Notes under the pieces: generated by a model | Seen by the model: the letters and a program-made list of their open reading frames with translations, nothing else | Database searches by the model: none | Told to the model about the DNA's origin: nothing | Shown: one piece after another, positions 1 through 49,435 of the stretch | Layout: each line of letters begins with the position of its first letter | Position numbering within the stretch: position 1 is the first letter of the stretch | Source: Synechococcus sp. CC9311 | Lineage (GTDB): Bacteria; Cyanobacteriota; Cyanobacteriia; PCC-6307; Cyanobiaceae | Direction of reading: 5' to 3' | DNA: 64,000 bases | Assembly: GCF_000014585.1 (NCBI RefSeq) | Contig: NC_008319.1 | Coordinates: 186,001 to 250,000, forward strand | Position numbers and translations under genes: made by a program

Positions 1-1149
1 ACTTGACCAGCGCTCAGGGAATTCACCGTCATAGCGTTTAATGAGCGCAAGAGCCTCATCTCTTTCCAAATCTCCTGAGCGAACTTCTTGTGATGCATCG
101 TAAGTTGCGCGCCCTATTCCAAACTTAACATATGTAGTATAGTAATGAAAGTCATCAATCTTGTCATCAATAGAGTTGTACTTTGAATATGTCCCAGCCG
201 TCCTCTCTGGACTAGCCTTAAAGCCTCCATTTTCGACTGCAAAGTAATAAGCAGACTGAGGATGCCACTTTAAGTAATATCCTAGGTAGTGGACTTCAGC
301 CCCTATGTCTTTCAATGGCTGCATTGAGCTGGGCAGGAAAGGTTGGAGGTCTGCGGAAGTCAAGCCAAAATTTTCTTTCAAGCTTTTAATGCTCTCACCA
401 CCTATGAACAATTCATCTTCTGAGTTCGAAGAGAAGTACTCAAAACTTCTCTGTGCATCTGCATTATCTTCAATAGGATTACCATATTCTGCCTCATTCT
501 CTCCGTAGAAGATTAGTGGTATCTTAAATAGAGCAGCCATCTTAGGCGCGAAGCACTTTTGACCAAGAATGAATGGCTGAAAAGGGTGAAAGATATTCTC
601 CACAGCAAGTCGCGTTAGTAATCGCTTTGAACGACCTGATGTTGTCATTGTGTAATTATCCATACCCGAATGTATCCAGCACTGGAAATTATGGTATCCC
701 CAATCTGTATAGATATTTGGAGCCCAAGTGACGGTCAAAGGATTCATCCCATATTTGTACTTTAACACCCAAGATTGATAGAAGCTATCTTTCCCGCCTG
801 ATCCCGGTACAAGGCAGTCATAGCTACCATTTTGAGACCTGTATTTGTCACACAACGCCTTCAGTTCTGACTCACGTCTTTCCCAGTCAATCTCTTTTGA
901 TTTTCTCTCGGCAGTAAGACACGCGTCGCAAACATTATTAATATCAAAGGCAATAGTCTTTTTCCGTGACTCTTTTGTATGCTTAAACTCAACTGCAGAG
1001 CTTGGACGTTGGTTTGATATACAACACCGACTACAAAATCTGACCTCAGAGGGTAGTCCGTATTTCGGCATAACAGAGTTATGATTTGCCGTTGGCGAGT
1101 ACAACTCTAAGTTGATCGTGTCGGACAGCGCGCTCCTCTTGATTTCCAT
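1..1149 (-). CDS. N-acetyl sugar amidotransferase (WbpG/PseA type), 3' end cut by window edge
   Basis: The frame is open from an ATG at 1149 to base 1, giving 383 codons with no stop; the gene leaves the window. The N-terminal part has a zinc-ribbon-like pair, FCSRCCISNQRPSS followed by VCDAC about 40 residues later, and then the PP-loop ATP-binding motif PGSGGKDS near residue 120. The last visible part reads VRSGDLERDEALALIKRYD, typical of the C-terminal half of this family. Members such as WbpG and PseA use ATP and ammonia to form an acetamidino group on a bacterial surface sugar, usually with HisH/HisF-like partners, which may lie beyond the left edge. It follows asnB after 69 nt and is the last visible gene of the operon. 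The family call is firm; the exact sugar is inferred from context. Confidence 0.85.
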   Translation of the reverse strand, partial: MEIKRSALSDTINLELYSPTANHNSVMPKYGLPSEVRFCSRCCISNQRPSSAVEFKHTKESRKKTIAFDINNVCDACLTAERKSKEIDWERRESELKALCDKYRSQNGSYDCLVPGSGGKDSFYQSWVLKYKYGMNPLTVTWAPNIYTDWGYHNFQCWIHSGMDNYTMTTSGRSKRLLTRLAVENIFHPFQPFILGQKCFAPKMAALFKIPLIFYGENEAEYGNPIEDNADAQRSFEYFSSNSEDELFIGGESIKSLKENFGLTSADLQPFLPSSMQPLKDIGAEVHYLGYYLKWHPQSAYYFAVENGGFKASPERTAGTYSKYNSIDDKIDDFHYYTTYVKFGIGRATYDASQEVRSGDLERDEALALIKRYDGEFPERWSS

Positions 1150-1218
1150 TTTATAAGTAAAACTATTCTATTAATATAACATGCGCATCGCCTTCTCGCA
1201 TTACTTTCAGGATAATGC

Positions 1219-3033
1219 CTATTTTGACGTGATTAGCTCTAAATTAGACATATCCTGATCAATAAACAATCTGAACCAAATCTCAAGAGAAATTAATGCT
1301 CTCAACAGCCGCGTGTAATTCTTGCGTGCACTTGTGTGGTCTTCAATTACTTCGCGTAACACGCTTTCTGCGTATAGTCCCCTAGAAAGTGACCTATTAT
1401 CTAATAAAATTCTAGAGCAAAAATCGGCTAAATGCCCCCTGAACCAATCGCCAACAGGAACTGTAAACATTTGTTTTTTTCGCCACGTTAGTGTTTCACC
1501 TAGTAATTCTTCTACGGCCATCTTGTAAATATACTTTGTTTCCGTGCCCTTAAGTTTCATTTTACCAGGCAGAGAAAACGCGTACTCGACTAACCGATAG
1601 TCCAAGAATGGCGAGCGGACTTCTAACGAGTGCGCCATTGCCATTCTATCTGGTTTTACAAGATTGTTTCCTGGCAAGAGATTTACTGTATCAGCATACA
1701 GAACTTTGTTGATATGGTCATCTTGACCAAAACGTAACATTGATTCAGTGATTGGAGCGTAAGGATCGTTCTCCTCGAAACTTGCTTTTATTTCACCCTT
1801 GAACAGTCTCTTTGCCATATCTGCTTCTATTAGACCTGTAAATTGTGCATAATCGCTAAACCATCTCGGATGACTTCTATCACACTCACCACTGAAGAAA
1901 CTTGCATATTTGTCATAGCCAGCGAATAATTCATCTCCGCCATCACCAGTTAAAACCATCTTTACTTCCTGAGACGCATTTTCCGAGACTTGATATGTCG
2001 GTATGAAAGAAATATCTCCATGAGGCTGGTCACAATGCCATATGAATTTTGACCATATGTCTAATGCATTCTCACTCATGATCTTGGTCGAATGGTAAGT
2101 TCCAAATCGCTTCGATGCCATTTCTGCATAACTTGTCTCGTCATATCGAGCGTCTTCAAAGCCTATAGAGAACGTCTTTGTAGGCGACTCCTTATACAGG
2201 CTCATAAGTCCAACCACACTGGAGCTGTCAAGTCCTCCAGAAAGGAACGCACCAAACGGAGCATCACTTCTAAGTCGTATGCGAACAGCATCATCCAATA
2301 AAGTAATTATTCCCGACTTTGCTTCAGCCGTCGTTATATCTTCATTTAATCCTATATCATTACAATCCCAATATCTGTTTAATTTAACACCACTTTTAGT
2401 GATCGCCGCCGAATGGCCTGGCTGAAGGTGATAGATATTCGCAAAAGCTGTTTGCGGAGGAGGAATATAGTTTAGCGCGAAGTAACTTCTTAATGCATTA
2501 TAATTGGGATTGGCTTTGACTCCTGCCGCTAAAATAGCCTTAATTTCTGATCCAAACCATAAGCAACCACCGTCAATACAATAGTAAAGGGGCTTTACTC
2601 CAAGTCGGTCACGGTATAAGCGCAACACGGCTGTAGAAACTCGTGAATCATAAATAGCAATCGAAAACATTCCATTCAACCTACTAACAAAATCAGGCCC
2701 CCATATCGCGTATGCATGCAATACAACCTCAGTGTCACTATCTGACTGGAAGCAAGCGCCCTCTCCAATCAACAAATCTCTCAATTCAATATAATTGTAT
2801 ATTTCTCCATTTTGCACTACGACTATATCCTTGTTCTTTGAATAAAATGGCTGATTGCCATTCTTAGATAAGTCAATAATCGAAAGTCTACAATTCCCAA
2901 GTAGTGCTTCTTCATTACTCCAATAGCCCGTATTATCCGGCCCTCGGTGCAATATCGACTTAGCCATCATCACAGGTAGCTCACCTGAGAAAGCACTTGC
3001 TTCAAAAGAGAAACCACCGAAGATGCCACACAT
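1219..3033 (-). CDS. asnB: asparagine synthetase-like glutamine-dependent amidotransferase (AsnB family)
   Basis: This 604-residue protein starts MCGIFGG, so Cys2 becomes the N-terminal nucleophile of a class II glutamine amidotransferase domain (about residues 1-210, with HRGPDN and NGEIYNY motifs). The C-terminal synthetase domain carries the PP-loop GAFLSGGLDSSSVVG near residue 260 and LTGDGGDELFAGYDKY near 365. Length is near the family norm. The ATG overlaps the TAA of the upstream aminotransferase in a TAATG junction, so translation is probably coupled. AsnB homologues inside surface-polysaccharide operons usually amidate a sugar carboxylate or supply amide nitrogen rather than make free asparagine; that role is inferred from position. 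It could still act in general asparagine synthesis. Confidence 0.9.
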   Translation of the reverse strand: MCGIFGGFSFEASAFSGELPVMMAKSILHRGPDNTGYWSNEEALLGNCRLSIIDLSKNGNQPFYSKNKDIVVVQNGEIYNYIELRDLLIGEGACFQSDSDTEVVLHAYAIWGPDFVSRLNGMFSIAIYDSRVSTAVLRLYRDRLGVKPLYYCIDGGCLWFGSEIKAILAAGVKANPNYNALRSYFALNYIPPPQTAFANIYHLQPGHSAAITKSGVKLNRYWDCNDIGLNEDITTAEAKSGIITLLDDAVRIRLRSDAPFGAFLSGGLDSSSVVGLMSLYKESPTKTFSIGFEDARYDETSYAEMASKRFGTYHSTKIMSENALDIWSKFIWHCDQPHGDISFIPTYQVSENASQEVKMVLTGDGGDELFAGYDKYASFFSGECDRSHPRWFSDYAQFTGLIEADMAKRLFKGEIKASFEENDPYAPITESMLRFGQDDHINKVLYADTVNLLPGNNLVKPDRMAMAHSLEVRSPFLDYRLVEYAFSLPGKMKLKGTETKYIYKMAVEELLGETLTWRKKQMFTVPVGDWFRGHLADFCSRILLDNRSLSRGLYAESVLREVIEDHTSARKNYTRLLRALISLEIWFRLFIDQDMSNLELITSK

Positions 3034-4550
3034 TAATTTGTCTCCTTTGTCAGAATTTGAAGGATTGCACTTATGACTCTGTCTTGAGAACGTGACGGCA
3101 TATTAGAACCACTTGGCAGACATATAGATCGCATAAAATGTCGCTCTGAGTAACTTGTTTGCTCGTCATGTGGAATGTAGTCATACCCATAGCATATAGG
3201 CTGCATATGCATAGGTTTCCAGCCTGGCCTTGCGTCTATTCCCTCTGACTTTAGAATTTTCATTATTGCAAAGGGGTGGAGATTCTCTGACCTTGGCTCA
3301 ATCTCTATTGCAGTTATCCATCTATTGCCTAATGTGTCTGGAACTTCTTGTTGAAAACTAATTCCTGGAACTCTCGTTAAACTCTGCACGTAACGTGAAA
3401 ATATATTTCTCCTTGCCTTGACCCTATCCTTAAGCACCTCTAGTTGACCCACTCCCAGTGCTGCCAGTACGTTTGACATTCTATAATTATAGGCAATTGA
3501 ACTATGCTGGTAATGTAAACAATTATCACGCCCCTGCGTTGCAAGATATCTAATTTTACTCGCTATCTTGGGGCAATTAGTAACAACAGCACCTCCAGAG
3601 GATGTTGTTATTATCTTATTCCCATTAAACGAATATACACTTATTAGTCCATGACAACCACTAGCCTCTCCATTTACTGTTGCTCCTAGACTCTCTGCAG
3701 CATCTTCGATTATCGGAACATCGTAAGCATTTGCAATCTTGCATATTTCCAATATATTCGCTGGCTGTCCATACAGATGTACAACAATAATTGCTCCAGG
3801 GAGCCTGTTTCTATCTTTATCTAGCTTCAATTGGCGCTCTAGCGCTTTTGTTGACATATTCCATGTCCCAGGCTCACAGTCTATGAATACCGGTTCGTGC
3901 TTCTCAATCAATATTGGCTGTACGCTTCCTATAAAAGTAAGGTCAGAAACATAAATTCTCTTATCTTGCTTAATCATAAGTGCTCTAATGGCTAGATGCA
4001 ATCCGGCTGTGCCAGAAGCCACCGCAATTGCATGGCTCCTATCGCAAATAGCTGATAGATCTTGTTCAAATCTATTTAAATATGGTCCTATCGGTGCAAT
4101 CCAGTTAGAGTCAATTGCATCCTGAACATAGTTTGTTTCACTTTCGCCAAGATGAGGCGACGAAAGAAGAATGCTGCCCTCTAAGTCCTTTTTATTAATT
4201 AGGAAAACAGGTAAATCTTTAGAGTCTACTTGAATAATTGTATTGACGCTATTATTATTCATTGCGGCGACAACTTCAGATTCGTCTGAATCCTCTTGAC
4301 AAACTACCGGATTGCGAGTTGGTAATTTTGATACACTATCATCCAAACTCATTCCTGAGATCAATGCACGCCTGATATCCCCGTCTGAGACTGTCCTCAC
4401 TATCTGACCGTGCTCACCAATCACAACTATCAGCTTGACCTTGCTCGCTTCTAGTTTTACTAGTGCAGCTCTTAAGCTATCAAATTCTTGGCAAGTATTG
4501 GTAGTGTTTATTTTTTGCTTTATCACACTACCTCTTACAGACCATCTCAT
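3033..4550 (-). CDS. CBS-domain pair fused to DegT/DnrJ/EryC1-type sugar aminotransferase
   Basis: Residues of about 15-130 form a CBS pair with the signature TVSDGDIRRALISGMSLDD, the type normally found at the N-terminus of PtmE-like nucleotidyltransferases. From about residue 135 a complete PLP-dependent aminotransferase of the DegT/EryC1 family follows: HLGESETNYVQDAI, ASGTAGLHLAIRAL, the Asp of PIIEDAAESLGA and the Schiff-base Lys of FNGNKIITTSSGG. Enzymes of this class (LegC, PseC, PglE) aminate 4-keto-6-deoxy sugars. I use the ATG at 4550 because it overlaps the upstream TAA (TAATG); an ATG at 4565 would add five residues and more overlap. The CBS/aminotransferase pairing is unusual and suggests nucleotide control of the transamination step. 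Confidence 0.85.
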   Translation of the reverse strand: MRWSVRGSVIKQKINTTNTCQEFDSLRAALVKLEASKVKLIVVIGEHGQIVRTVSDGDIRRALISGMSLDDSVSKLPTRNPVVCQEDSDESEVVAAMNNNSVNTIIQVDSKDLPVFLINKKDLEGSILLSSPHLGESETNYVQDAIDSNWIAPIGPYLNRFEQDLSAICDRSHAIAVASGTAGLHLAIRALMIKQDKRIYVSDLTFIGSVQPILIEKHEPVFIDCEPGTWNMSTKALERQLKLDKDRNRLPGAIIVVHLYGQPANILEICKIANAYDVPIIEDAAESLGATVNGEASGCHGLISVYSFNGNKIITTSSGGAVVTNCPKIASKIRYLATQGRDNCLHYQHSSIAYNYRMSNVLAALGVGQLEVLKDRVKARRNIFSRYVQSLTRVPGISFQQEVPDTLGNRWITAIEIEPRSENLHPFAIMKILKSEGIDARPGWKPMHMQPICYGYDYIPHDEQTSYSERHFMRSICLPSGSNMPSRSQDRVISAILQILTKETN

Positions 4551-5578
4551 TATACACTTGTGCAATCATCTCTGGTGTAAGTTGCCTTGCACGATTTAAC
4601 GGACTTTCTGATGTACCCTCTGTTAAATTCACCCAGCTCAATAAGGTGCACTCCTCTAACCATCCATAGGATTGGGAACAATATCGAGACTATGCCAAGC
4701 CCTTCAAACAAAAGCCCAGGTGCTAGGCAGGACAAGATTCTAAAATAAGTCTTAAGCTCTTTATTACGAGAGTTGCCAAGGCGCACTAAACTGATTATTA
4801 ATAATAAGGCTATTGCTAGTGATAAATATCCTCTCAGACTGCCCTTTGCTAAACCAATAACAAGAGTGCTTCTTGTAATTGCACTCTGAATACCATCCGA
4901 GCCGTACTCAGACGTGTAACCGTCCAAGCCACCCACGAAACCTTGAATCTTTACAAGAGTTACTAGTAATGTTATTCCCAGAAAAGCAATTAATGGCACT
5001 ATTGCAACTGGATTATTCCTTAGAAGGCAGCTAATTTTCTTACGGTAAATGAGGATCAATAACGAGCTCTGCACCATAACTGCCGTGCTTAAAAGAGACA
5101 AGGTTACCCCAAATAATAAAAACAATATATTGCCTTTGCTTGTTATCGCTATTACTACATAACCAATAGCAAGAGCAGCAAGAAACGATCGATAACTTAT
5201 TAGGAATGGAAGTACTAGAGGTGCCAAATAAATTATGTCATTTGACCTCTTGTAGTATCTCATTACCACGGGTAAGCTTATAAGAATTAGTAGTACATAT
5301 TCAAGCCCCTGACCATGTCCCAGACTGCCAAGATATGAAAATGGAATAAATATGGCAACTCTTACCAAATGAGTAACAAAGATAGGATTCTCTAGTGCCC
5401 TTGTAACTGCACCACCGCTTTGAATAAACTCAAATGTTTGCTTTATTTGTATAAAAGCTCCATCTTGCAGGTTTATTTCGTTAAGGTCAAAATATCCTGA
5501 TCTAATTCTGGTCGCATTAATGAATGCTAATGCAATCAACAATATGATTGCCCACGCTTTAAATTTTTTGACTCTCAT
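4550..5578 (-). CDS. polytopic membrane protein, possible polysaccharide polymerase (Wzy-like)
   Basis: The 342-residue product is strongly hydrophobic, with perhaps 8-10 membrane segments, beginning with a helix at residues 8-22 and followed by a predicted external loop rich in charged residues (about 25-60). No sequence signature is clear. Wzy-type polymerases are poorly conserved and typically sit among glycosyltransferase genes as this does, so polymerase or ligase is a reasonable guess and no more. The short loop GFVGGLDGYTSEYGSDG between two late helices could be functional. It lies 2 nt downstream of the NeuB-like gene and overlaps the aminotransferase by one base. Low GC like its neighbours. 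Confidence 0.6.
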   Translation of the reverse strand: MRVKKFKAWAIILLIALAFINATRIRSGYFDLNEINLQDGAFIQIKQTFEFIQSGGAVTRALENPIFVTHLVRVAIFIPFSYLGSLGHGQGLEYVLLILISLPVVMRYYKRSNDIIYLAPLVLPFLISYRSFLAALAIGYVVIAITSKGNILFLLFGVTLSLLSTAVMVQSSLLILIYRKKISCLLRNNPVAIVPLIAFLGITLLVTLVKIQGFVGGLDGYTSEYGSDGIQSAITRSTLVIGLAKGSLRGYLSLAIALLLIISLVRLGNSRNKELKTYFRILSCLAPGLLFEGLGIVSILFPILWMVRGVHLIELGEFNRGYIRKSVKSCKATYTRDDCTSV

Positions 5579-5580
5579 CC

Positions 5581-6642
5581 CTATTCATACTCAACATCGT
5601 TATTGCAAATGGGCATTCCAGCCTGAACATTTCGTTTCAAAATTTTTCCTTGTACTCTAGCCCATTCGTTAGCTGGTATCCCTATTGGTGGGAATGAGAA
5701 CGATACATTCTCTAAATTCATTCTCGTGCCTGCTATTAATCCCTGTTTGGCACGTAAGCTCATCCTACCATTATTAGGCATTACCTCGTTATCGATCCTT
5801 GAGTACGGGTCGCCAAGTGCAATATTTACTCTGTTTATGTTTTCTACAAGCTGCATCAGTTGCCCCTCTTTTACCGCGTGAAAAACATCTTGGTCATCAG
5901 CCTCATTATCCCGACATAAGCCAAACTCAATTACTTTAGCCCCGATCGCAACGCTAGCTATGATCATTAGTAAGTCATCAGAGTGGTGAGACAATCCTGC
6001 ATGTTCACCTAGTAGGTTCGATAGATAGTTCATAAAGCTTAGATCCTGTCTCTCTATTGGTGCTGGTGGAGCGGCAGGACTATGCTCAAAAATCAGTTTC
6101 ACATCTTGATTGGCTGAATAAGCAGCATGTCTTGCCTCAAATATCTCGCATAGTGTTGATTTTCCTGTATCAATTAAAAGCGGCAACCCAGTTCTAGCGC
6201 TCTTCTCTATTAGCGGAAGAAAGTTAATATTTGACGAGGCTATTTTTATCGCAATAGCACCCTCGCTTACCGCAAAGTCAACAGACTCAAGCGTATAGAC
6301 TGATACTATAAAATTTAAACCATAAGACTTGATTAAATTAAACAGTTCACGATGCTGATCTAATGTCATTACCTTCTTCTGTATTAGGGATCTATAATTG
6401 ACAGACTTATAGCTTCCGTCTCTACACAAGTAACGCTCCTCAGCTGGTGTGTCAAATACAACCATTGGGTCTTCTAATATTGCCGTCTTAATTGTCCGTA
6501 AGCCTGACTTTGATACACTCTCTATTAAGCCACGCGCTATTTCTAGGTCTCCGTTAAAAAACATATCTATATCCGGTAGAATAATTGGAAGATGTCCTTC
6601 ACCAAGGACCTGAGTTCCAATGCAGATGTCTCTTAGGCTCAT
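5581..6642 (-). CDS. divergent NeuB/SpsE-family nonulosonate synthase-like protein with SAF domain
   Basis: The 353-residue protein has the order of a sialic acid synthase: a TIM-barrel part (about 1-275) and a C-terminal SAF/antifreeze-like domain (about 290-353, with SLRAKQGLIAGTRM and GKILKRNVQAGMPI). Fold landmarks survive: FNGDLEIARGLI, KIASSNINFLPLIE, DTGKSTLCEI and SHHSDD. Several active-site motifs differ from typical NeuB: the usual AEIGVNHNGD reads PDIDMFFNGD, KFQ reads KTA, and the EKHF motif that carries a Mn-binding His reads EFGL. NeuB enzymes condense PEP with a C6 sugar to make a nine-carbon acid; this copy may use another substrate or have another role. ATG overlaps the upstream TGA (ATGA). 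Confidence 0.75.
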   Translation of the reverse strand: MSLRDICIGTQVLGEGHLPIILPDIDMFFNGDLEIARGLIESVSKSGLRTIKTAILEDPMVVFDTPAEERYLCRDGSYKSVNYRSLIQKKVMTLDQHRELFNLIKSYGLNFIVSVYTLESVDFAVSEGAIAIKIASSNINFLPLIEKSARTGLPLLIDTGKSTLCEIFEARHAAYSANQDVKLIFEHSPAAPPAPIERQDLSFMNYLSNLLGEHAGLSHHSDDLLMIIASVAIGAKVIEFGLCRDNEADDQDVFHAVKEGQLMQLVENINRVNIALGDPYSRIDNEVMPNNGRMSLRAKQGLIAGTRMNLENVSFSFPPIGIPANEWARVQGKILKRNVQAGMPICNNDVEYE

Positions 6643-7391
6643 TCGCGGTCCTTCTCTCCTTGTAGTTTAATCTGCATTGGCCTTACAAATCGATTTGGCA
6701 TCTTTAATATCAAAAATTCTACAAATTCAAGATCAATTGGTCCGTCAATATCAAATCGTGTATATTCTGCCATTATAAATGCTAGTGTCTTTTTGGTAAA
6801 TGTTCGTGGGTGCTCCATAAAACTATCTCGCTTCCATGCATATATCGCAGCATTTAAAGCAAAGCACATCTTTGTTGAACCAGTGTGCTCATTTACTTCC
6901 TCAGGGCTTAACATTGGCATTAAAAATCCTTGTTGGTCGACATAAAACAAATTTGAGAACGGCGTCACCTTTGATTCTGTTACAGATACCAGGCTTTCAG
7001 CAAACTTATCTTTCTCTAAAGCTTTGACTGCAGCAATGACATCTGCTGCTGCTCTCAATGGAGCAGTGACATCGAGATCAACTATAGTATCGTACTGTAT
7101 ACCCTCACATTGTTCGCACTTAAGTACAGCATCATAAATTGCTCTAGTCTTTGATATTGCAGAATTGGATAACTCAGCATTTCTATATACGCACGCTATG
7201 TTTCCATATCTGCTTGCTATTTCCAAATACTCACGACTATCGCTTGTTACTACGATTTTTCTGAATAACTTAGACTCGTGAGCAGCTGCTATTGCATAAG
7301 CGATGAGAGGATGACCATTCAGCGGCGCAATATTTTTATTTGCTAATCGTTTTGAGCCGGCTCGTGCACAAATTGTACAAATCCTTTTCAT
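6639..7391 (-). CDS. CMP-nonulosonate synthetase (NeuA/PtmB-like cytidylyltransferase)
   Basis: The 250-residue protein opens with the nucleotide-binding segment ICARAGSKRLANKNIAPLNG, of the acylneuraminate cytidylyltransferase type, followed by PLIAYAI, the metal-site region VVTSDSREYL and VDLDVTAPLR. The last motif is closest to the PtmB/LegF subgroup that activates legionaminic acid with CTP. I start at the ATG at 7391 (MKRICTIC), because the upstream in-frame start at 7403 is a TTG; that TTG overlaps the preceding stop and cannot be excluded. It sits directly upstream of the NeuB-like gene (ATGA overlap), the usual pairing of synthase and activating enzyme. The sugar it activates is not determined by the sequence. 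Confidence 0.85.
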   Translation of the reverse strand: MKRICTICARAGSKRLANKNIAPLNGHPLIAYAIAAAHESKLFRKIVVTSDSREYLEIASRYGNIACVYRNAELSNSAISKTRAIYDAVLKCEQCEGIQYDTIVDLDVTAPLRAAADVIAAVKALEKDKFAESLVSVTESKVTPFSNLFYVDQQGFLMPMLSPEEVNEHTGSTKMCFALNAAIYAWKRDSFMEHPRTFTKKTLAFIMAEYTRFDIDGPIDLEFVEFLILKMPNRFVRPMQIKLQGEKDRE

Positions 7392-7399
7392 ATGACAGA

Positions 7400-7954
7400 T
7401 CAATGTGCCAATTTCGTTAAGACACTATACACCGTTATCATCAGTATTTTTAGGTAGAGAGTAAACGAGCGCTTCTCTACCCACTCACAATCATTCTTTA
7501 GTCTAATTTCATGAGTAGCACCAGATCGACCTCGAATCTGAGCTAATCCTGTAATGCCTGGCTGAACACTATGCCTGAAAATAAATTCCCTTTCAGTATA
7601 CATTTCTTTCTGGGTAGGTACGTCAGGCCTTGGCCCAACAAAACTCATATCGCCTCTAATTACGTTGATCAGTTGGGGCAGCTCGTCAATACTCGTCGCT
7701 CTCAGAAACCCACCAACTCTTGTTATTCTCTTATCACCTTTTTTTGTGGCAAAGTTGCCATCTTTCGATGCATTAACATACATTGTCCTTAACTTATAAA
7801 TTATAAATTCTTTTCCGTATTTCCCAATTCTGACTTGACTGAATACTGGCCACCCTCTTGATTCTACTGATATTAAGAATGTAGCCACAGCTAAAAGTGG
7901 AATCGCCACCATGAGTAAAATTAGGCTGAGAACCAGATCTGCAATCCTTATCAT
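7400..7954 (-). CDS. initiating sugar-phosphate transferase (PglC/WcaJ-C type)
   Basis: This is a short (184-residue) bacterial sugar transferase of the polyprenyl-phosphate hexose-1-phosphate transferase family. One membrane helix occupies about residues 5-28, followed by the conserved KLRTMYVNA, LRATSIDELPQL, the catalytic-region GDMSFVGPRPDVP and QPGITGLAQIRGRSG. The size matches the monotopic PglC-like core without the extra N-terminal helices of WcaJ. Such enzymes move a sugar phosphate from UDP-sugar to undecaprenyl phosphate at the inner membrane and so start a lipid-linked glycan. ATG overlaps the upstream TGA. It implies that the operon builds a lipid-linked oligosaccharide rather than only free sugars. 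Confidence 0.9.
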   Translation of the reverse strand: MIRIADLVLSLILLMVAIPLLAVATFLISVESRGWPVFSQVRIGKYGKEFIIYKLRTMYVNASKDGNFATKKGDKRITRVGGFLRATSIDELPQLINVIRGDMSFVGPRPDVPTQKEMYTEREFIFRHSVQPGITGLAQIRGRSGATHEIRLKNDCEWVEKRSFTLYLKILMITVYSVLTKLAH

Positions 7955-9183
7955 TGAAAATTCACCGCTATTAGTTCCACAATTGACCTAACAGGGCTCT
8001 CGGTTATCGATTCATTTCTTAATGGTTTTGGTAAGCAATCATTAGCAATGCAATACCACATATGATCCAATTCATTTTCCGCGTTGATAGTCATGCTATT
8101 GCCTATCATTTTAAAATCTACATCACTAGAAAACATAGAGAACATTCCCTGAACAACTGGTTTACCAAGCAGAATAGCTTGATATCCAACTGAAGACGAA
8201 CAGGTAAAAACTCCATCAACACTATAGAGTAAGTCTGATAGATCCTCATGCTGGTCACTAAATGATAGCCCTTCAATCTCATCCTCCACGATTATTTCTT
8301 GATTGGGATGATAGCGAATACATAGCTTTACGGACTCCGCACACCTTTTCATTGAATCTATCAACATTTTGTTTAGCCTCCGTGGCAACTGAGGATCACC
8401 AGCCTTACCTGTAAAAGGATGTTCATCTGGTTCGTTTTGTTGAGCAAAGAGTAAGACTCTGTCGTTTGGACCCCAACCCTTGCGCTTTCTTAGCTTCTCT
8501 ATTTCATTCTTTCTTCGTGGTTTCAATAGTTGTTCAAACTGAGGGTTTCCTGTGATTCTGATCTCTTCTTTTGGTCTTCCTGCTTCTAACATTTTGTTGT
8601 AACTGTATTTACTGTCCACGCATACATAATCAGTGAAGGACTCTTTCCCTACCCACTCTATCTCATGTTTAGCTAGTGATGACCATATAACAATTGAAGG
8701 TATCCCTAGCCTCCTGGCAGCATCCAAAAATGCTTTTTCAGATCTTGGAGCGTTAGTCGATATGACCATGTCAACCATCAGCTCTTCTAACGCTATAAGT
8801 GCGGTATTTATTGGGAAGAAGCAGCTTCGCCCCCTCTGTCTGTACATCGAAGCTGCATCTACTTTTCCATATTGCTTTACTAAATCGTAATAGTTCTTCC
8901 CTAGATAAGCGATACTCTCCTCCTCGCTCACACTATAACCAAAGTTTCCTTTCTCAACTAATCTTTTACCGGCGTCTAACTCTTCAATTGTCATAACTCC
9001 CAAATCTTTGTATCCAATAGTCTCGACACCTGACGCCAATGACTCCCTATAACCTGTCGTTAGTGCCAAAACCACCGGATTAATATTCCAGTTCTTATTC
9101 TCATCTAGATATTTCGCAATGGGCAAAACTGATCTAATGTGAGCGGCTCCATAAGCGACAAATAAAACCTTTTTACTTTTCAT
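7951..9183 (-). CDS. GT-B-like glycosyl/glycerophosphotransferase
   Basis: The 410-residue protein has two Rossmann-like halves: an N-terminal VLFVAYGAAHIRSVLPIAKY and a C-terminal donor-site region with CIRYHPNQ (about residue 290) and TCSSSVGYQAILLGKPVVQG (about 330). These are shared by CDP-glycerol glycerophosphotransferases and capsule transferases of the GT-B fold. No signal peptide or membrane helix is visible, so it is probably cytoplasmic or peripheral. The start is set by ATGAAAAG inside the end of the upstream dehydrogenase, an 11-nt overlap. Donor and acceptor cannot be told; in this operon a CMP- or nucleotide-activated sugar donor is plausible. Confidence 0.7.
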   Translation of the reverse strand: MKSKKVLFVAYGAAHIRSVLPIAKYLDENKNWNINPVVLALTTGYRESLASGVETIGYKDLGVMTIEELDAGKRLVEKGNFGYSVSEEESIAYLGKNYYDLVKQYGKVDAASMYRQRGRSCFFPINTALIALEELMVDMVISTNAPRSEKAFLDAARRLGIPSIVIWSSLAKHEIEWVGKESFTDYVCVDSKYSYNKMLEAGRPKEEIRITGNPQFEQLLKPRRKNEIEKLRKRKGWGPNDRVLLFAQQNEPDEHPFTGKAGDPQLPRRLNKMLIDSMKRCAESVKLCIRYHPNQEIIVEDEIEGLSFSDQHEDLSDLLYSVDGVFTCSSSVGYQAILLGKPVVQGMFSMFSSDVDFKMIGNSMTINAENELDHMWYCIANDCLPKPLRNESITESPVRSIVELIAVNFQ

Positions 9184-10147
9184 GCATCCCCAGCTCCCGG
9201 TCCAAATCTTCTATGCATTTTATATTCAATTGGCCATCGATATATCTCGCGCACTCCCCTCCACCTTCTTGTATTATATCTCTATGCATTTTCCTGTATG
9301 TATCGTCAAAATCCTCGCAGGGACATTCGATTAATTCTGTTCCATTGCTACTACTCTTTATAATTTTACCAGACATAAGATCCGTAACCAGAGTTTCATT
9401 GTTACTAATTAGTGAAAAACCTCTCGTTTCAAAATGCTGCGTGTATGACAGGCCAATTGATACAAGTCCTGCCTGCTTACAGCTTCCAACGATATAAATA
9501 GTATCCTCAACCTCACACTCGAGATTAGACAAGTGACCACCATATATATTCAGTTTATGTGGAGTTCCACAAAGCCACTGCATCAGATCAAGCTCATGTG
9601 ACAAATCTCTTAGAACTCCACCTCCGGTAGACCATCGTGCTGAGCTACTTTTTCTATAGTCAATGTCGCGCCAATGCGGCAGGTAACTGTGGCTAAAAAA
9701 TTCTGCTCTCGTAAATTTTTTGTCCTGTTGTTTGCATAATTCCTTCGACTTCTTCACCACGGGTAAATATCTTAGATTAAAGCCAATAAACACTCTCTCT
9801 TTATCCTCTATCGTCAACCCCAAGTCAACCAGCTGCTTAGACTCAGCGGCAAGTGGCTTTTCAACCATTATCCTTGCTCGCTTGTTTAATCTGAGCGCAT
9901 TGAGCATACACTCAATATGTCTCGATGTTTCAACTGCTATTACTATATATCTTATTTCTTTCATATTTACATCCCCTATTGACTCAAAATAAGTGTATGC
10001 ACTGTCCCGTTCTACCTCCCTGCATGATCTTGTTACCACGCTAACCCTTGCGCCTACCTCCTTGAGCAATCGTGCGTGTTTCCTTCCGATCGATCCAAAC
10101 CCGACTACAAGGGCACCTATTTCCATTAATTCATGAGTTTGTGCCAT
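9173..10147 (-). CDS. Gfo/Idh/MocA-family sugar dehydrogenase
   Basis: The 324-residue protein begins with an NAD(P)-binding site, ALVVGFGSIGRKHARLL, and has the family motif MVEKPLA near residue 97, whose Lys belongs to the catalytic region. The central GGGVLRDLSHELDLMQWL gives the conserved DLSHE/H pair expected of the C-terminal domain. Such enzymes oxidise or reduce a sugar, often a nucleotide sugar, with NAD(P). An identical arrangement of an ATG overlapping the previous stop (TAATG) ties it to the upstream fusion gene. A second in-frame ATG eight codons in is a possible start. It may act on an intermediate of the nonulosonate route or on another branch sugar. Confidence 0.8.
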   Translation of the reverse strand: MAQTHELMEIGALVVGFGSIGRKHARLLKEVGARVSVVTRSCREVERDSAYTYFESIGDVNMKEIRYIVIAVETSRHIECMLNALRLNKRARIMVEKPLAAESKQLVDLGLTIEDKERVFIGFNLRYLPVVKKSKELCKQQDKKFTRAEFFSHSYLPHWRDIDYRKSSSARWSTGGGVLRDLSHELDLMQWLCGTPHKLNIYGGHLSNLECEVEDTIYIVGSCKQAGLVSIGLSYTQHFETRGFSLISNNETLVTDLMSGKIIKSSSNGTELIECPCEDFDDTYRKMHRDIIQEGGGECARYIDGQLNIKCIEDLDRELGMHEK

Positions 10148-12279
10148 TAATTAGTAAAATCTACTGACAAGTCTCTCAAGATTTTTTTCTCATCTATCAT
10201 ATGCTTAGTAAGCTTGCAGAACTTTGTCCATTCATACTCTGGCCAATCTAAACCATATAGTCTAGATTGAGATAATATACCAAAGGACCTGGCAATTGCG
10301 TATGCTCTGCCATCGTTGAGCGCTTCAACTCTTGGTAATCTCCATTCAACTACTTTGAAGTATTCACTAAGTAATACCCTGCATCTTTTTATGCTGTTTC
10401 TACCGGATAACATGCACAATCTCTCAATAACAATAGCCAGATCTACATAAAATGGAAGCCAACTCGACGTGGCCTCCTCAAAATCTATAAATATTATACC
10501 TCCTTGCCTTGTACATAAGATGTTGCCCTTATTCAAATCCCCATGAATAAATTGCTTATTCGTTTCTCTGCTTACTCTGTTGGCGCGTTTGCTGATTTCT
10601 TCTTTGATTTTCTTTGACAACGTACTGCACTTTTTTTCTAGCAAGTCAGTTTTAGCAACTTCGTGCCAGGCATCAACAATCCATCTTTGTCTCTCGATTG
10701 CTAACTCCCGCTTGAAAACTAAGGTTTTCATTCTCTTATGAAGCAAACCAAGTGCGCTGCCGATTTTTTTGAGATTATCCTCGTCTTCGCAATCTATTTC
10801 TGTGCTGTCAATCCACTGCGTCACTGCCATATATTTGTTTTTTGTCTCTATGTATACGGGATCCTTTGTCAATACCGTTTCAACCTGTGCACATCCTTCC
10901 CCTATCTCTTGAACCATTAATAGTGCATTTTTAGTTTGCTCAACCTCTCTGGTATCTATTAGTTTTATGAATATATTGCCCGACTCTTTTGTGTTGCCTC
11001 TTATGTACACAGTCTCGGATTCATCATGCAATGTGCTTAGTCTTCTGATTTCACTATTGGCTTCTCCCAGCCCGCATTTTCTTAGTGCCTCCCTTATTTC
11101 TTCCGCCCAACTGTGACTTGACCCTAATTGCCTTCGGCTTGTATCAAGCTGGCTGTCTGCCGCATAATTCTTTGGCAAGAATAATCTTTTTTTGTAATCC
11201 CTAACTATCGTCTTGTAGATCTCTTCTGTCTTTGGCTCGCTAAATTCAATCGTCTTATTACCCCATATCTCCGTCTTGAAATCTCCTAAGGTTAGCTCTC
11301 TGTCTATAACCTCCGCAAACCAGCTATCTTTGACTAGTTCGCTTATTGACTGGCCATTTTCGACATACGACGCCCTGACATCCTTCTCTCCAATTGCATA
11401 GATTAGTCTGGGTAACTTTCTCTTTGCTGCCATATTTATCATAGCCGCTTCCTTTAGTCCGGTCGAAAAGCAGGTTACTATATATTTGTATTCAAGCACT
11501 AGTTCTAGTAGGCCTCTGCTTGTTACTTTTACTAATCCACTTGCAATTGCCTGTTCCTTTCCTTCAAGAGGATGGCTTACGTAGTCTATTCCATCCTTCC
11601 CTAAGTCTGCCACCACACTATGGAGTTTTTCTAGGGTTTTTCTATAACCTTGTAGTTGCCATAGTGGTTGACCTATAAACAATACTCTGTTTGTCGTAAT
11701 TTCATTCTGTCCAACTTTCTTTAACAGTCTCTCGGCTTTGTACTTCATCTCTTTCATTTTTAATTCTCCTACACAAATCGATCTGTGTACGCCCTTTTCA
11801 GTCATTTCTTTTTCCTTTCCCGCAATCTGTACGAAGTAAGTCGGTGATGGACCTGCTATGCCATCCACAACCCAACCAGGCGTATCCTGAAGCGTGTAGC
11901 GGATTTTTCTTTGTCTAGAACCAATTAACTGCAATGTCTCATCTACTCCCATATCCAAACCGCTTAGCCCTGTTATTACAGCATCTATTTGTGCGTCCCC
12001 AATCGTCTCGAGGACCCATTTCATGTACTCCTGTTTCTTGTCAGATTCGTGCTTAGTGTATCTCGCATTGGTTGAAATTGCTGCTCTTATATTATTTAAC
12101 TTGCAAACATTCTCCAATATTCTCCACGCCGGTTCTTCGACCATTACCACCTCTATTTCTATGTCTCGTTTCTTTGCTAAGTAGCCAATAGTTTCCTTTA
12201 TCAATGCTGCTCCACCAGGGGAGGAGCATGCTAGTGCTAGCTTGGCAATTTTTCGCTTACTATTCTCTTGTTTCACCAT
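10147..12279 (-). CDS. fusion: GT-B-like N-terminal half plus aminoglycoside-phosphotransferase-like kinase
   Basis: This 710-residue protein has two parts. Residues about 1-360 resemble a GT-B transferase (KLALACSSPGGAALIKETI at the start; DYVSHPLEGKE and CFSTGLKEAAMIN in the putative donor site). Residues about 385-700 are a protein-kinase-like small-molecule kinase of the APH/choline-kinase group: FIHGDLNKGNILC is the catalytic loop with its Asp and Asn, and IIFIDFEEATSSW supplies the metal-binding Asp. The kinase half implies phosphorylation of a sugar or small alcohol such as choline or ethanolamine; the transferase half implies attachment to a glycan. Both are inferences. The gene is unusually rich in Lys and Glu codons compared with the GC-rich backbone. 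It overlaps the SDR gene by 7 nt. Confidence 0.7.
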   Translation of the reverse strand: MVKQENSKRKIAKLALACSSPGGAALIKETIGYLAKKRDIEIEVVMVEEPAWRILENVCKLNNIRAAISTNARYTKHESDKKQEYMKWVLETIGDAQIDAVITGLSGLDMGVDETLQLIGSRQRKIRYTLQDTPGWVVDGIAGPSPTYFVQIAGKEKEMTEKGVHRSICVGELKMKEMKYKAERLLKKVGQNEITTNRVLFIGQPLWQLQGYRKTLEKLHSVVADLGKDGIDYVSHPLEGKEQAIASGLVKVTSRGLLELVLEYKYIVTCFSTGLKEAAMINMAAKRKLPRLIYAIGEKDVRASYVENGQSISELVKDSWFAEVIDRELTLGDFKTEIWGNKTIEFSEPKTEEIYKTIVRDYKKRLFLPKNYAADSQLDTSRRQLGSSHSWAEEIREALRKCGLGEANSEIRRLSTLHDESETVYIRGNTKESGNIFIKLIDTREVEQTKNALLMVQEIGEGCAQVETVLTKDPVYIETKNKYMAVTQWIDSTEIDCEDEDNLKKIGSALGLLHKRMKTLVFKRELAIERQRWIVDAWHEVAKTDLLEKKCSTLSKKIKEEISKRANRVSRETNKQFIHGDLNKGNILCTRQGGIIFIDFEEATSSWLPFYVDLAIVIERLCMLSGRNSIKRCRVLLSEYFKVVEWRLPRVEALNDGRAYAIARSFGILSQSRLYGLDWPEYEWTKFCKLTKHMIDEKKILRDLSVDFTN

Positions 12280-13097
12280 GCACCTAGTCCACCATCAACA
12301 AGCAGGCATTGACCTGTCATGTATGAGGCTTCATCACTGGCAAGGTAAAGCAGTGCGCCTGTTATCTCTGTGTCTCTTCCCATTCTCCCCATAGGTACTC
12401 TTGCGCTGTACCTATCTACAAATTCATCATTCTGTCCGCTAAAGATGCCTCCTGGTGCAATTGCATTCGACCGTATCTTTTTGTCTGCATATTCAACTGC
12501 TATCCATCTCATTAATCCCAGGACACCTGCTTTCGCTGTGCTGTAAGCGACTGGTGTATTGATTGCATTTCCTTCATACAATGCATTTTTGTAAATTCTC
12601 TTGTCATGACCCATGACTCCCATGACAGAGCTCATCTGTATCAATGATCCTCCTGATCCGTCTTTTTTCTTCAGAAAACTTTTCACGGCTTCACGCGCAA
12701 CTAAAAAGCATGCATCTAGGTTCACCGAATTTTGCCTCCGCCATTCTTCCAATGAAAAATCAGTCAGATTGGCAAAAAACTCTTTTGGGTTCTTTATGGG
12801 TGCTGTAGCATTGTTTATAACAACATCTACTCCTCCAAAGTCTTTCTCGACCTTTGCGAATGCCCTGACAACCTCTTCTTCATTTCCACAGTCACAGCTT
12901 ATAGCTAAGATATTCTCCTTTTTGTGACGAGCTGTCATCTGCTCATGGATCTCCTTAAGTCTTTCAGAGTTGACTTCTGCTAGCACTATTTTGCCGCCTT
13001 CAGATAGTACTGCGTCGGCAAAACGCGACCCAAGAATGCCGCCAGCACCTGTAACAAGTACCCTCTTGTCAGCCAACCTCATGCCGCCTCTGCTCAT
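12273..13097 (-). CDS. short-chain dehydrogenase/reductase, PtmA-like
   Basis: A classical SDR of 274 residues: cofactor site VLVTGAGGILGSRFADA, NNATAP in the central strand, catalytic Ser in QMSSVMGVMG, and YSTAK as the Tyr-x-x-x-Lys pair, followed by SNAIAPGGI. PtmA-like SDRs accompany ptmB in legionaminic-acid clusters, and the same pairing is present here. It is the first gene of the operon, so its promoter should lie just upstream of 13097. ATG at 13097 gives MSRGGMRL; an ATG at 13082 preceded by AGAGG at 4-nt spacing is an equally good start. Its substrate is unknown; conversion of an amino sugar precursor is the likeliest role. Confidence 0.82.
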   Translation of the reverse strand: MSRGGMRLADKRVLVTGAGGILGSRFADAVLSEGGKIVLAEVNSERLKEIHEQMTARHKKENILAISCDCGNEEEVVRAFAKVEKDFGGVDVVINNATAPIKNPKEFFANLTDFSLEEWRRQNSVNLDACFLVAREAVKSFLKKKDGSGGSLIQMSSVMGVMGHDKRIYKNALYEGNAINTPVAYSTAKAGVLGLMRWIAVEYADKKIRSNAIAPGGIFSGQNDEFVDRYSARVPMGRMGRDTEITGALLYLASDEASYMTGQCLLVDGGLGAW

Positions 13098-14165
13098 ATC
13101 TCATTACTCTATTGCATGAGACGAAATTTCCGCTTGGTAAGCCAACCACTTCTTAATTAAAACCCCGAATACAATCTTCGGACTCGCTTGATGCGTTTCC
13201 GTTTATCAAAGTTCTTCTAATTTCCTTCACTTCGTTGTCTTATTCAGTGTTTACCTTGCTTCCTTACTCGCTCCAAACAAGTGTATTTCAGTCAATTAGA
13301 TGACTGCTATCCCGCCAGTTGTGGCAGCAGCTCAGAGGTTAAACCTACCTTTTGTACATCTTGATTTCCATGCAACGATAGGATGGTCTTCTGAAAGTTA
13401 ACTTAGATTCCTCTCATCAGATAGATCGGATATTAAGTTTATTTTAATTTATCCGTATTTGCTGAAGATGTAGTAGGAGCAGGGTAATCCTTTGGTAACA
13501 ATGTACAGGAGGTCCAGGTCAGGGTTGGTGTGGTTTAGTTCATCTTGAAGGCTTTTCGGGTACGGGATTCTTTCCATCTTTTAGTTCCTCAGCAACTAAC
13601 ATTTAGCATATGAGCCAGGACGCTCAAGAAGGGCTCTGTAGGAATCCAAGCCCGCAAACTCCGAGCCCCCGTACCGTAAAGATTGGCTAGTTGCGTGGAG
13701 TGGTTCTTGTTTGGACTTGGGTCATGAATTATTTCAGGGGCTATTCGAGAGAGGCTTTTCCTTTGAATTGCTTACCGACCATTTGGGACTTGGTGTTTTG
13801 ACTTTAGAAGTACTTATTCGGGCGAGGTGTACTGAAAACGTCGCATGCAAGGCTGTTTGACACTAATAGAAATTACACAGGAAGTTCAACGGCAGGGTGA
13901 TTGCTTGGACCTTTCTTTGCGGGATGCTTTTAATGATTTCGAATCACGGTCGTTCACTCGTAGAGTCCGCAGCCATGGTCTAGAAGCTTTCAGCTTGGCT
14001 TATTACAACTGCGAGAACAATTTCGGAATAATGCTTTGTGTCGGCTTGCCCGGTTTTATTTTCCCGCGTGCTTGACCTCAAATCCAAGTTAAGGGCTGGT
14101 TTTCAACATTGTTCAGCTTCCCAATTAACACCTGTCTGTCGAAATCTCAAACCCTTTAGTTCCCT
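13098..14165. other. gene-poor spacer upstream of the glycan operon
   Basis: About 1.07 kb with no gene I can support. It should contain the promoter of the minus-strand operon, but no clear -35/-10 pair stands out. A plus-strand frame at 13845-14075 (76 codons) has no recognisable motif and no convincing ribosome site, and I treat it as chance or debris. AT content falls between the low-GC operon on the left and the GC-rich backbone on the right. Confidence 0.5.
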
Positions 14166-46429: not shown

Positions 46430-46647
46430 ATCACTTGATGATTGTTGGCAGTTTTGGATGGCTTCGCCAAATCCATGGGGCTGTTTTTTGTCACCAACGC
46501 TTTATAATTTGAACAATAAAAGGAAGAAAAGCTGCTTAATTGCTTGCCATGGATGGGCGTAAAAGTCAGAAACCATTCTCTGTTTTTATATGAAGCCGCT
46601 CTGTCTTTTTGTTTTGGTTTATGGAAGTCCTTGCATGACCTAGATTG

Positions 46648-47517
46648 ATGGCTTTACCTCCTCTGTATTCCCAGATGCCAACAGTTGTGTATATAACAAG
46701 TAGAGGTCATAGTGGCTCAACCTTATTGTCGCTTTTGATTGGTGGAAATTCTAAAGTCGTAAGTGGGGGTGAGCTGAAAATGTTAATCAATTCAGATCCT
46801 AGGCGGAGGTTTTGTAGTTGCCATTCACTCAGTCCGGAGCAGTGTCCTTTTTGGAGTCAGGTGCAGGCTAAGGTTATAGATTTAGTGGGTGTATCTTTGT
46901 GTCAATTATCATTGATGGAGGGTGGTAGTGACGACATGTTTTCTAAGCACAATCAGGCATTGTTTGAGGCGATCGCATCTGTAAGTGGCTGCTCGATCAT
47001 TGTTGACTCCTCGAAGTCATTGCTGCGGCTTTCGCGCCTTCTTAAGGCAAAAGAGAAGGGTTGTGCGATTGAAGTGCAGCCTATTCATCTTCATCGTGGG
47101 CCGTTAGGTACTGTAAACAGTGCCCGCAAGAAGGGGCATCCGTTGTTGTCTGTTGCGCAAAATTACTCAACAGCATTCTTCAAGACTCGTGAATGTTTGA
47201 GCAAAACGCCCTCATTATTTATCAGTTATGAACAACTTGCGTGTCATCCTAGGCGCTGTCTTCAGCGTGTGATGCGTTGGATTCAATTGCCTCTTCAGGA
47301 ATCTCAACTTCAATGGCGGGAGGGGATTCGCCGTGATGTCGGTGGAAATCGCATGCGCATAGGAGAGTCAACGAAGATTTGTCTGGATCAGAGTTGGAAG
47401 CGTGATTTGAAGCCTGTAGAGGTTCTCAAGTTGACACTTTTAACTTTGCCAGTCCGTTTGCGTTGGCGATGGCTCTATCGCAAGTTCCATGGTCGCAAAA
47501 TTGGGTTTGGCTTGTAG
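46648..47517 (+). CDS. sulfotransferase family protein
   Basis: The 289-residue protein has the PAPS-binding loop ITSRGHSGSTLLSLLIGG at about residue 15 and the 3'-phosphate site IVDSSKSLLRLSRLL near 113. A Cys-rich segment, FCSCHSLSPEQCPFW, is shared with the next gene and may bind metal or form disulfides. Sulfotransferases of this class place sulfate on a sugar. AT-rich upstream. ATG at 46648 (a later ATG at 46675 is possible). Confidence 0.85.
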   Translation: MALPPLYSQMPTVVYITSRGHSGSTLLSLLIGGNSKVVSGGELKMLINSDPRRRFCSCHSLSPEQCPFWSQVQAKVIDLVGVSLCQLSLMEGGSDDMFSKHNQALFEAIASVSGCSIIVDSSKSLLRLSRLLKAKEKGCAIEVQPIHLHRGPLGTVNSARKKGHPLLSVAQNYSTAFFKTRECLSKTPSLFISYEQLACHPRRCLQRVMRWIQLPLQESQLQWREGIRRDVGGNRMRIGESTKICLDQSWKRDLKPVEVLKLTLLTLPVRLRWRWLYRKFHGRKIGFGL

Positions 47518-47714
47518 ATATTGGGATCATTTTTGTCAATCTGTATGCTTGATTGCCTATGCGTGGAGTGCTGTTTTTTTGGTTTGTGTATTGCCTTGTA
47601 ATTGGTAATCTCGATTTTGGAAAGCTTTTAGTGTTCCCTTTGGACTAGCGATGGGTTTCTGTATGAGCTTGATGCTAAAATGACTCAGTTAAAGTATATG
47701 GATCGAAAACATAC

Positions 47715-48530
47715 ATGTCGCGATGGAACTTGGTTTATATCACTAGCAATAGCCATAGCGGCTCTACGCTTTTAGATATGTTAATCGGCTCCCATTCCAG
47801 TTGCATCACTTTGGGTGAGATTCATAAGCTGACTCGTAAGTCGAAGGGTGTTTGCGCTTGCGGTGCTCCCAACTATCAGGAGTGTGCTTTTTGGCGTGAC
47901 GTAGATGCGCGGCTGCAGGCATGTGGAGGACCTAAGCTAGCTCAATTGCATTTGGATTCCACTCAAAAAGATGAGTTTCAGGAGATGAATTACTATTTAT
48001 TTCGTGTGCTTCAAGAAAAGACAAATGCTCAATGGTTTGTGGATTCTTCTAAGAAGTTATCGCGATTAAAGAGTCTCGTCTCTGATCCTTCGTTTAATGT
48101 TATTCCCATTCACATTATCCGCCGACCTGAGGGGGTTGTGTGTTCGAACCTTAGAAAGGGTAGGAGCTTTTATAGTGAGTTGCATTCTTATTATTATGAT
48201 CTTTGGAGCCGGTATAAATACTTGCATTGCCGTCGTCACGTTTTAATATCTTATGAAAGCCTTTGTTCTCAACCTGACCTTGTTTTAGGAAAGATTATGG
48301 GAAGGTTAGGGTTGTTTTTTGAATCCGCCCAGCTCCAGTGGTCTAAGCACGAGCATCACAATGTAAACGGCAACAAGAGGACGAGAACCAGTCGTCAATC
48401 ATCGATTTGTTTAGACGAACGTTGGCGGCGAGAGCTTAGCCTGTGGCAGCGCTTCGTTGTTAAGCTCGCTACGGTCAAATTTAGATTAAAATTGCTTTTA
48501 TTCTTAAGGATATGGCCCAAGCCCCTATGA
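47715..48530 (+). CDS. sulfotransferase family protein, paralogue of the preceding
   Basis: The 271-residue protein has YITSNSHSGSTLLDMLIGSH, the Cys-rich VCACGAPNYQECAFW and WFVDSSKKLSRLKSLV, following the same plan as the gene at 46648. The two share the end pattern NGNKR...ICLDERWRREL. They seem tandem duplicates that have diverged. Separated from the first by about 200 AT-rich bases, so it may have its own promoter. Role: sulfation of a sugar. Confidence 0.85.
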   Translation: MSRWNLVYITSNSHSGSTLLDMLIGSHSSCITLGEIHKLTRKSKGVCACGAPNYQECAFWRDVDARLQACGGPKLAQLHLDSTQKDEFQEMNYYLFRVLQEKTNAQWFVDSSKKLSRLKSLVSDPSFNVIPIHIIRRPEGVVCSNLRKGRSFYSELHSYYYDLWSRYKYLHCRRHVLISYESLCSQPDLVLGKIMGRLGLFFESAQLQWSKHEHHNVNGNKRTRTSRQSSICLDERWRRELSLWQRFVVKLATVKFRLKLLLFLRIWPKPL

Positions 48531-48592
48531 GTGACAAAGGGTGACATGCAATCTGCTTTTTGCGATAATTGGCATGTCTCTTGTTGAAAGAC

Positions 48593-49435
48593 ATGCGTGA
48601 AAATGGACCTCACTTCATCGTGATCGGTGCCCAGCGCTCTGGTACCACTTGGCTGCATCGTGTAATGACACAACATGATCAGCTTTGGTTGACCCCGGTA
48701 AAAGAACTGCATTATTTCGACAAGCAAGAACTACGGTTAGGCGTAATGAGTGCCTATGAGAGGAATAGGGCGCGTTTTTGGAGCCCACGTCGTTTAATGC
48801 TAGATCCACGATGGTATTGCCGATACTGGTTTCTTCCTCGTAGTGATGAATGGTATGGAAAATTATTTCGTCGTGCCCGTCAAAAAGGAAAAATAACAGG
48901 AGAAATTACTCCTGCCTATGCAGTCTTGCCAGAGAAAGAATGGGATCATTTGTACTCTCTTTTCCCTGATGTTCGTTTGGTTTTTATTATGCGTGATCCG
49001 ATCATACGAACTTGGTCTGCTTTGCGCAACAATATGAAAAAGGGTCGTTTGAATTCTGCTTCATCTGTGGATGAATTAGTTGCGCAGGCTTCAGGCTTCT
49101 CGATGGCATCTCGTTCTGACTATTTGCGGACGATTAAAACTGTGGAGTCTCGATTCGGTGCAGATCGAGTGCATTGTTGTTTCTTTGAGCAGCTTTTAAG
49201 CGATCCTACGGAATTGGCTGACTCCCTCTTTCAGTTCTTGGGAGCAAAGCCTATGGGAGAGGCTCTCAACATTCCCCCTGCTGTCAATAGTGCTGCTGGA
49301 GGCGATGCTCCACCATTTGCGCTTCAACAAGCTTTGGCAGAGCAATACTTGCCAATGGTCGATGAATTAGCTGAACGTTTTGGGGAGGTTCCCCTGAGTT
49401 GGGCCAATAGATACCGTAATTTGCTGGGAGTATAA
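48593..49435 (+). CDS. sulfotransferase (heparan-sulfate/NodH-like)
   Basis: The 280-residue protein belongs to a different sulfotransferase group: PHFIVIGAQRSGTTWLHRVM at the N-terminus is the 5'-PAPS site, KELHYFDK the substrate region, and VRLVFIMRDPIIRTWSALR the 3'-phosphate site. ATG at 48593 (MRENGPHF) is preferred over a TTG upstream at 48569. It probably sulfates the same glycan at a different position. Confidence 0.9.
   Translation: MRENGPHFIVIGAQRSGTTWLHRVMTQHDQLWLTPVKELHYFDKQELRLGVMSAYERNRARFWSPRRLMLDPRWYCRYWFLPRSDEWYGKLFRRARQKGKITGEITPAYAVLPEKEWDHLYSLFPDVRLVFIMRDPIIRTWSALRNNMKKGRLNSASSVDELVAQASGFSMASRSDYLRTIKTVESRFGADRVHCCFFEQLLSDPTELADSLFQFLGAKPMGEALNIPPAVNSAAGGDAPPFALQQALAEQYLPMVDELAERFGEVPLSWANRYRNLLGV

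Follow-up and report, generated by a model that had tools for sequence, protein, structure and literature searches.

NeuBv, a divergent NeuB protein encoded in Synechococcus sp. CC9311, belongs, as judged from alignments, to a small conserved subfamily of the NeuB superfamily in which the acceptor and metal sites appear to be remodelled, and it is neither a product of decay nor a lone oddity. By the same evidence, it lacks the features that define the characterised NeuB, PseI and LegI enzymes, namely the two metal-binding His residues, Glu25 and Arg314 (residue numbers of this kind are those of Neisseria meningitidis NeuB, NmNeuB). The window analyzed here, a stretch of 64,000 nucleotides (positions 186,001 to 250,000 of contig NC_008319.1), contains the NeuBv gene together with several other genes of its cluster.

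The NeuBv protein and its active site

An earlier sequence-only reading of this DNA gave the boundaries of the NeuBv open reading frame exactly, and its assignment of the product to the NeuB fold with a SAF domain was borne out: the NeuB barrel (PF03102) scores 126.8 bits (Pfam cut-off 22.1) and the C-terminal SAF/antifreeze-like domain 30.6 bits (cut-off 21). The AlphaFold2 model (pLDDT 90.7) has NmNeuB (2wqp; Z 36.2, rmsd 3.6, 342 aligned residues) as its closest solved structure and matches it over the whole length, which puts the replaced residues where the active site is predicted to lie. NmNeuB (2wqp, 1xuu) shares with NeuBv the barrel and SAF domain as well as Lys53, Lys129, Ser132, Ser213, His215, Glu234 and Asp247, whereas the overall identity is 20-22% and NeuBv carries E25D, Q55A, E134N, S154D, Y186P, H236G and R314F. 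Campylobacter jejuni PseI (8h2c), which among solved structures is closest to NeuBv in sequence (E 1.3e-21), has the same fold (Z 32.9) and 24% identity, and is set apart from NeuBv by the same active-site replacements.

For the motif comparison, NeuBv was aligned with NmNeuB, C. jejuni PseI, Bacillus subtilis SpsE and 33 homologues from genomes. All three altered motifs named in the sequence-only reading were recovered, with AEIGVNHNG replaced by PDIDMFFNG (E25D, N29F, H30F), KFQ by KTA (Q55A) and EKHF by EFGL, where Gly indeed occupies the position of the metal-binding His (H236G); this alignment did not recover His and Glu where they would be expected. The one His said to remain in the SHHSDD segment aligns with His215. 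The change is larger than had been noted: E134N, S154D, C182S, Y186P, D214H, G245D and R314F are further departures at sites that hardly vary elsewhere.

In all three members of the clade described below, the catalytic Glu25 is Asp, the SAF Arg314 is Phe and the second Mn-binding residue, His236, is Gly, so that the residues required by characterised synthases are missing and only the first metal His, His215, is kept. Retained in all three, along with the equivalents of His215, Glu234 and Asp247, are Lys53, Lys129, Ser132 and Ser213, which we take, partly from established knowledge of NmNeuB, to form the PEP side of the active site. An alignment with the DAHP synthase profile, used to map the metal ligands of NeuBv, showed similarity too low to place them. 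Among ordinary synthases, the R314A mutant is inactive (PMC6795526). In Caulobacter crescentus NeuB, activity is abolished by E30A and R322A, which correspond to Glu25 and Arg314, and is retained only in part by H245A, which corresponds to His236 (PMC7591256). NeuBv is thus unlikely to carry out the usual reaction with an N-acetyl-hexosamine.

Partial resemblance to NeuBv is found in an uncharacterised SpsE-like protein of Chromobacterium violaceum (3g8r), which has Phe in place of Arg314 within the SAF motif NVSFxFPPxxG...ANEW; in contrast to NeuBv, it keeps EKH, Tyr186 and Ser154, has Asn at the Asp247 position and falls outside the NeuBv group in the tree. A separate, very divergent NeuB-family protein (L059, G628:C188:49128-49646) has Gln at Lys53 and Gly at Ser154, with EKH intact.

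A clade of three proteins

Initial homology searches returned only ordinary NeuB and PseI proteins, with 22-29% identity. Exact peptide patterns identified no close relatives of NeuBv in genome_contigs or viral_contigs, and whole-genome searches of 300 genomes of the family and 386 of the phylum gave no close relative beyond about 115 bits. We next searched about 85,000 species genomes for a degenerate DNA pattern that covers the beta7-beta8 region and places Gly at the His236 position; this pattern occurred in 6 contigs, 5 by chance and one in a true relative (L054), encoded in an alphaproteobacterial metagenome-assembled genome and 36% identical to NeuBv (229 bits, far above any canonical NeuB). 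A profile built from these two members, independently of the pattern, detected one further member (L076), encoded by a second genome from the order of L054, of which 249 genomes were searched. Apart from L054, there were no additional members in 398 genomes of Pseudomonadota and 260 of Alphaproteobacteria. Plasmids and phages gave only matches at the level of ordinary NeuB and PseI (about 31% identity or less), synthetic degenerate alignments had no match in viral_contigs, and a viral pattern scan for EKT-type NeuB produced 3 matches, all by chance. Three members are known, and their prevalence is low, at roughly one per several hundred genomes sampled.

NeuBv and the two alphaproteobacterial proteins (36-43% identity) form a monophyletic group with support of 100/100 with two members and SH-aLRT of 100 with three; the long stem of the clade leaves its exact sister group uncertain, and the nearest branch, weakly supported (71/92), is the L071-type NeuB. 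The signature PDID, KxA, SSNI, DTG, HSPxxPPAP, ExG, DxDxxHA and FxFP is present in all three proteins, and we found no description of it in the literature searched. There are 46 columns that are at least 90% conserved in 47 ordinary NeuB and PseI sequences; the trio keeps 21 of these, carries one shared new residue in 13 (P23, D24, F29, A54, Y116, A124, D158, S188, P192, G241, D250, A256 and F317) and varies in 12. The columns that contact ligand in NmNeuB, listed from PMC6795526 with His236 added from PMC7591256, are identical across the trio in 11 of 14 cases, compared with 91 of 346 overall (P 4.5e-5). After removal of every column fixed by the DNA search pattern, 7 of the 10 contact columns are identical (P 0.003), and the comparison of NeuBv with L076 alone gives P 0.002.

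Random decay and sequencing artefact were considered as sources of the changes and ruled out, given that the reading frame is intact and coupled, the genome is a single contig and the changes recur in two genomes.

The L071-type NeuB (genome G642) has, like NeuBv, Asp at Ser154 and a residue other than His (Thr) at position 236, whereas Glu25, Gln55, Tyr186 and Arg314 are kept and no APH kinase was seen beside it. Its gene directly adjoins those for HisH, HisF, the amidotransferase and NeuA, a suggestive parallel from one case. This protein (L071 / L074:7755-8900) is possibly a separate, undescribed metal-site variant.

Gene neighborhoods of NeuBv

The genome, one contig of 2.6 Mb, encodes exactly two NeuB-family proteins. 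The second is canonical (AEIGVNHNG, KFQ, EKHF) and its gene lies about 7.3 kb from that of NeuBv, outside the window; it is adjoined by a gene for an HpcH/HpaI aldolase-like protein (L005:18234-19064; G000:C1:184234-185064) that scores 26.1 bits against a cut-off of 25. NeuBv itself lies in a run of minus-strand genes, and its start codon overlaps the stop codon of the CMP-sugar synthetase gene upstream (ATGA, as read in the sequence).

Table 1. NeuBv and neighboring genes in the window
Feature	Coordinates	Strand	Basis and remarks
NeuBv (divergent NeuB/SAF protein)	5581..6642	minus	353 aa; ORF, Pfam, alignments, AlphaFold2; switched sites (own numbering): D24, D26, A54, N138, D158, S188, P192, G241, D250, H255, F317
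CMP-sugar synthetase, PtmB/LegF-like	6639..7403	minus	PF02348; TIGR03584 120 bits, under its cut-off
Gfo/Idh/MocA oxidoreductase	9173..10147	minus	Position of PtmF in related clusters; synteny
710-aa fusion: N-half (possibly GT-B-like) and C-half APH-family kinase	10147..12279	minus	HGDLxxGNIL and DFEE motifs
SDR oxidoreductase, PtmA-like	12273..13097	minus	NF050062 (PtmA) 145 bits, cut-off 350; synteny
LegC-like DegT aminotransferase with N-terminal CBS domain	3033..4565	minus	PF01041, PF00571; TIGR04181 350 bits, cut-off 420
AsnB-type amidotransferase	1219..3033	minus	PF00733 307 bits
N-acetyl sugar amidotransferase (WbuX/PseA/PtmG type)	1..1149, past window start	minus	TIGR03573 351.7 bits, cut-off 203.2

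Relatives of the CMP-sugar synthetase adjoin Gfo and mostly SDR genes. The HisF and HisH partners of the N-acetyl sugar amidotransferase are encoded outside the window (L005), in the same island; the best model for HisF is WbuZ (296 bits, cut-off 299.7). The CBS domain, fused here to the aminotransferase, is carried in the related clusters examined by a protein of its own, about 350-400 aa long. For the N-half of the 710-aa protein, a Pfam search gave no match and the structure model (pLDDT 48.6) is too poor for use; a homologue of this half occurs alone in an Azospirillum nonulosonate cluster, and is thus not specific to NeuBv.

All three genomes encoding a clade member possess a legionaminate-type cluster with a canonical NeuB, homologues of the amidotransferase, HisH and HisF, and an APH-family kinase. 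In L076, the gene order is PtmE-like, Gfo, PtmB-like, PtmA-like, amidotransferase, HisF, HisH, NeuBv, APH kinase, N-half protein, with the HisH and NeuBv genes abutting. In L054, the NeuBv and APH kinase genes overlap, and next to them on the opposite strand are genes for the N-half protein, HisH, HisF, amidotransferase, CMP synthetase, a CBS protein, canonical NeuB and NeuC. The kinase gene is directly 3' of NeuBv in both alphaproteobacteria, where it and the nearby N-half gene are separate, and is fused to the N-half in the window. No counterpart of the AsnB-type amidotransferase was seen by synteny in the L054 and L076 clusters. The partner most specific to NeuBv is the kinase; the amidination genes are linked to it more loosely. 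A further cluster (L045) encodes the amidotransferase (68% identity), HisF and HisH, and neither NeuBv nor the kinase; because amidination genes thus occur without NeuBv, its amidino link is an association only. The acetamidino-legionaminate pathways known so far place amidination after CMP activation (PMC3766260), so that no special synthase is required, which also argues against an obligatory link. Legionella pneumophila serogroup 1 has, in its acetamidino-legionaminic acid locus, a second neuB-family gene of unassigned function besides the canonical neuB, namely LPS ORF 9 (PMC3766260); from this published description, it is the most promising candidate for a relative that has been studied.

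The minus-strand run that includes NeuBv (window 1-13100) has a G+C content of 39-43%, compared with about 55-60% over the remainder of the first 22 kb; this drop suggests that the low-G+C polysaccharide island was probably acquired horizontally. Elsewhere in the window, positions 46645-49435 on the plus strand encode three consecutive sulfotransferase-like proteins, the first two under the Pfam cut-off, and positions 55055-57286 encode a pyridine nucleotide-disulphide oxidoreductase fused to an AIR synthase/SelD-like domain.

Possible functions of NeuBv

The retention of the PEP-side residues and of His215, Glu234 and Asp247, combined with replacement of the acceptor side, favors a synthase that still depends on PEP and whose acceptor and metal sites are new. 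We estimate at about one half the probability that NeuBv is a PEP-dependent ulosonate synthase that acts on an aldose through a remodelled acceptor pocket and metal site. In such an enzyme, PEP would be bound via Lys52, Lys133, Ser136 and Ser218 (NeuBv numbering), and a divalent metal would be held by His220 with Glu239 and Asp252, the lost His being replaced by new carboxylates or by His255. An N-acetyl-hexosamine would not be the acceptor, since the Arg314 that holds the N-acetyl group is replaced, as are Gln55, Glu134 and Tyr186. With Asp24, Asp26, Asp158 and Asp250 gained in the pocket and Arg314 lost, a hexose of cationic character (amino or acetamidino) would fit; alternatively, the linked kinase would suit a phosphorylated hexose, the type of acceptor used in the mammalian pathway. 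The product might be a second CMP-activated ulosonic acid in the same surface glycan. Counterpoints exist: S154D places a carboxylate beside the substrate pocket that could disfavour PEP, mutations of the E25A and R314A/R322A type inactivate ordinary synthases (PMC7591256, PMC6795526), and the clade counts only three known members. A more specific proposal, in which NeuBv would be a ulosonate synthase of a kind not yet described, with a distinct metal site, and would convert a cationic (amino or acetamidino) or kinase-phosphorylated hexose into a nonulosonic acid new to surface glycans, is put forward tentatively.

The main rival to the PEP-dependent synthase, which we consider rather doubtful, is a NeuB barrel that performs different chemistry, such as aldol cleavage, isomerisation or modification of a nonulosonate or its precursor, with no PEP condensation. 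S154D, H236G, E25D and Y186P jointly rebuild the catalytic face, the kinase partner could supply a phosphorylated substrate, and a second synthase is not strictly needed where a canonical one is always alongside; yet the conserved Lys53, Lys129, Ser132, Ser213, His215, Glu234 and Asp247 are the set found in PEP-condensing relatives. The replacement of Glu25 and Arg314, both essential in ordinary synthases (PMC7591256, PMC6795526), could also be read as the mark of a pseudoenzyme, a sugar-binding or regulatory partner that might form mixed dimers with the canonical NeuB encoded nearby, NeuB being a domain-swapped dimer. However, a freed active site would not be expected to show the same specific new residues at the replaced sites in three genomes at 36-43% identity, and a NeuBv SAF domain donated to the active site of the partner would lack the essential Arg; we consider such a role improbable and, because of the strict conservation in the clade, less likely than different chemistry.

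The smallest chance is left to NeuBv being an ordinary nonulosonate synthase whose product is legionaminic or neuraminic acid and whose activity tolerates the changes. The residual activity of C. crescentus NeuB H245A (PMC7591256) and the L071 NeuB, which combines Thr at His236 and Asp at Ser154 with the other synthase motifs, are compatible with such tolerance, but R314A, E30A and R322A mutants are inactive (PMC6795526, PMC7591256) and the genome already carries a canonical copy. The equivalog scores of NeuBv are also far under the cut-offs (TIGR03569, 144.8 against 399.65; PseI TIGR03586, 136 against 340.25), although this failure is weak on its own, the canonical NeuB of the same genome also missing the TIGR03569 cut-off, if narrowly (376.7). 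The sequence-only reading had suggested a different metal site or substrate, or sugar binding without catalysis. The former is strengthened by the replacements fixed in the clade, the canonical enzyme alongside and the inactivity of ordinary synthases that lose Arg314 or Glu25; the latter became less likely, given the retained PEP-side residues, His215, Glu234 and Asp247 and the strict conservation of the new residues.

Annotation commonly labels members of the NeuB family as sialic acid or nonulosonate synthases, and sugar products are predicted from the presence of such genes. The existence of a conserved subfamily without the essential Glu, His and Arg, encoded beside a canonical copy, implies that such predictions can be wrong. 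NeuBv would be a natural case in which substrate and metal specificity were exchanged while the fold was kept, and it suggests a sugar not yet known from the surface glycans of marine cyanobacteria and alphaproteobacteria.
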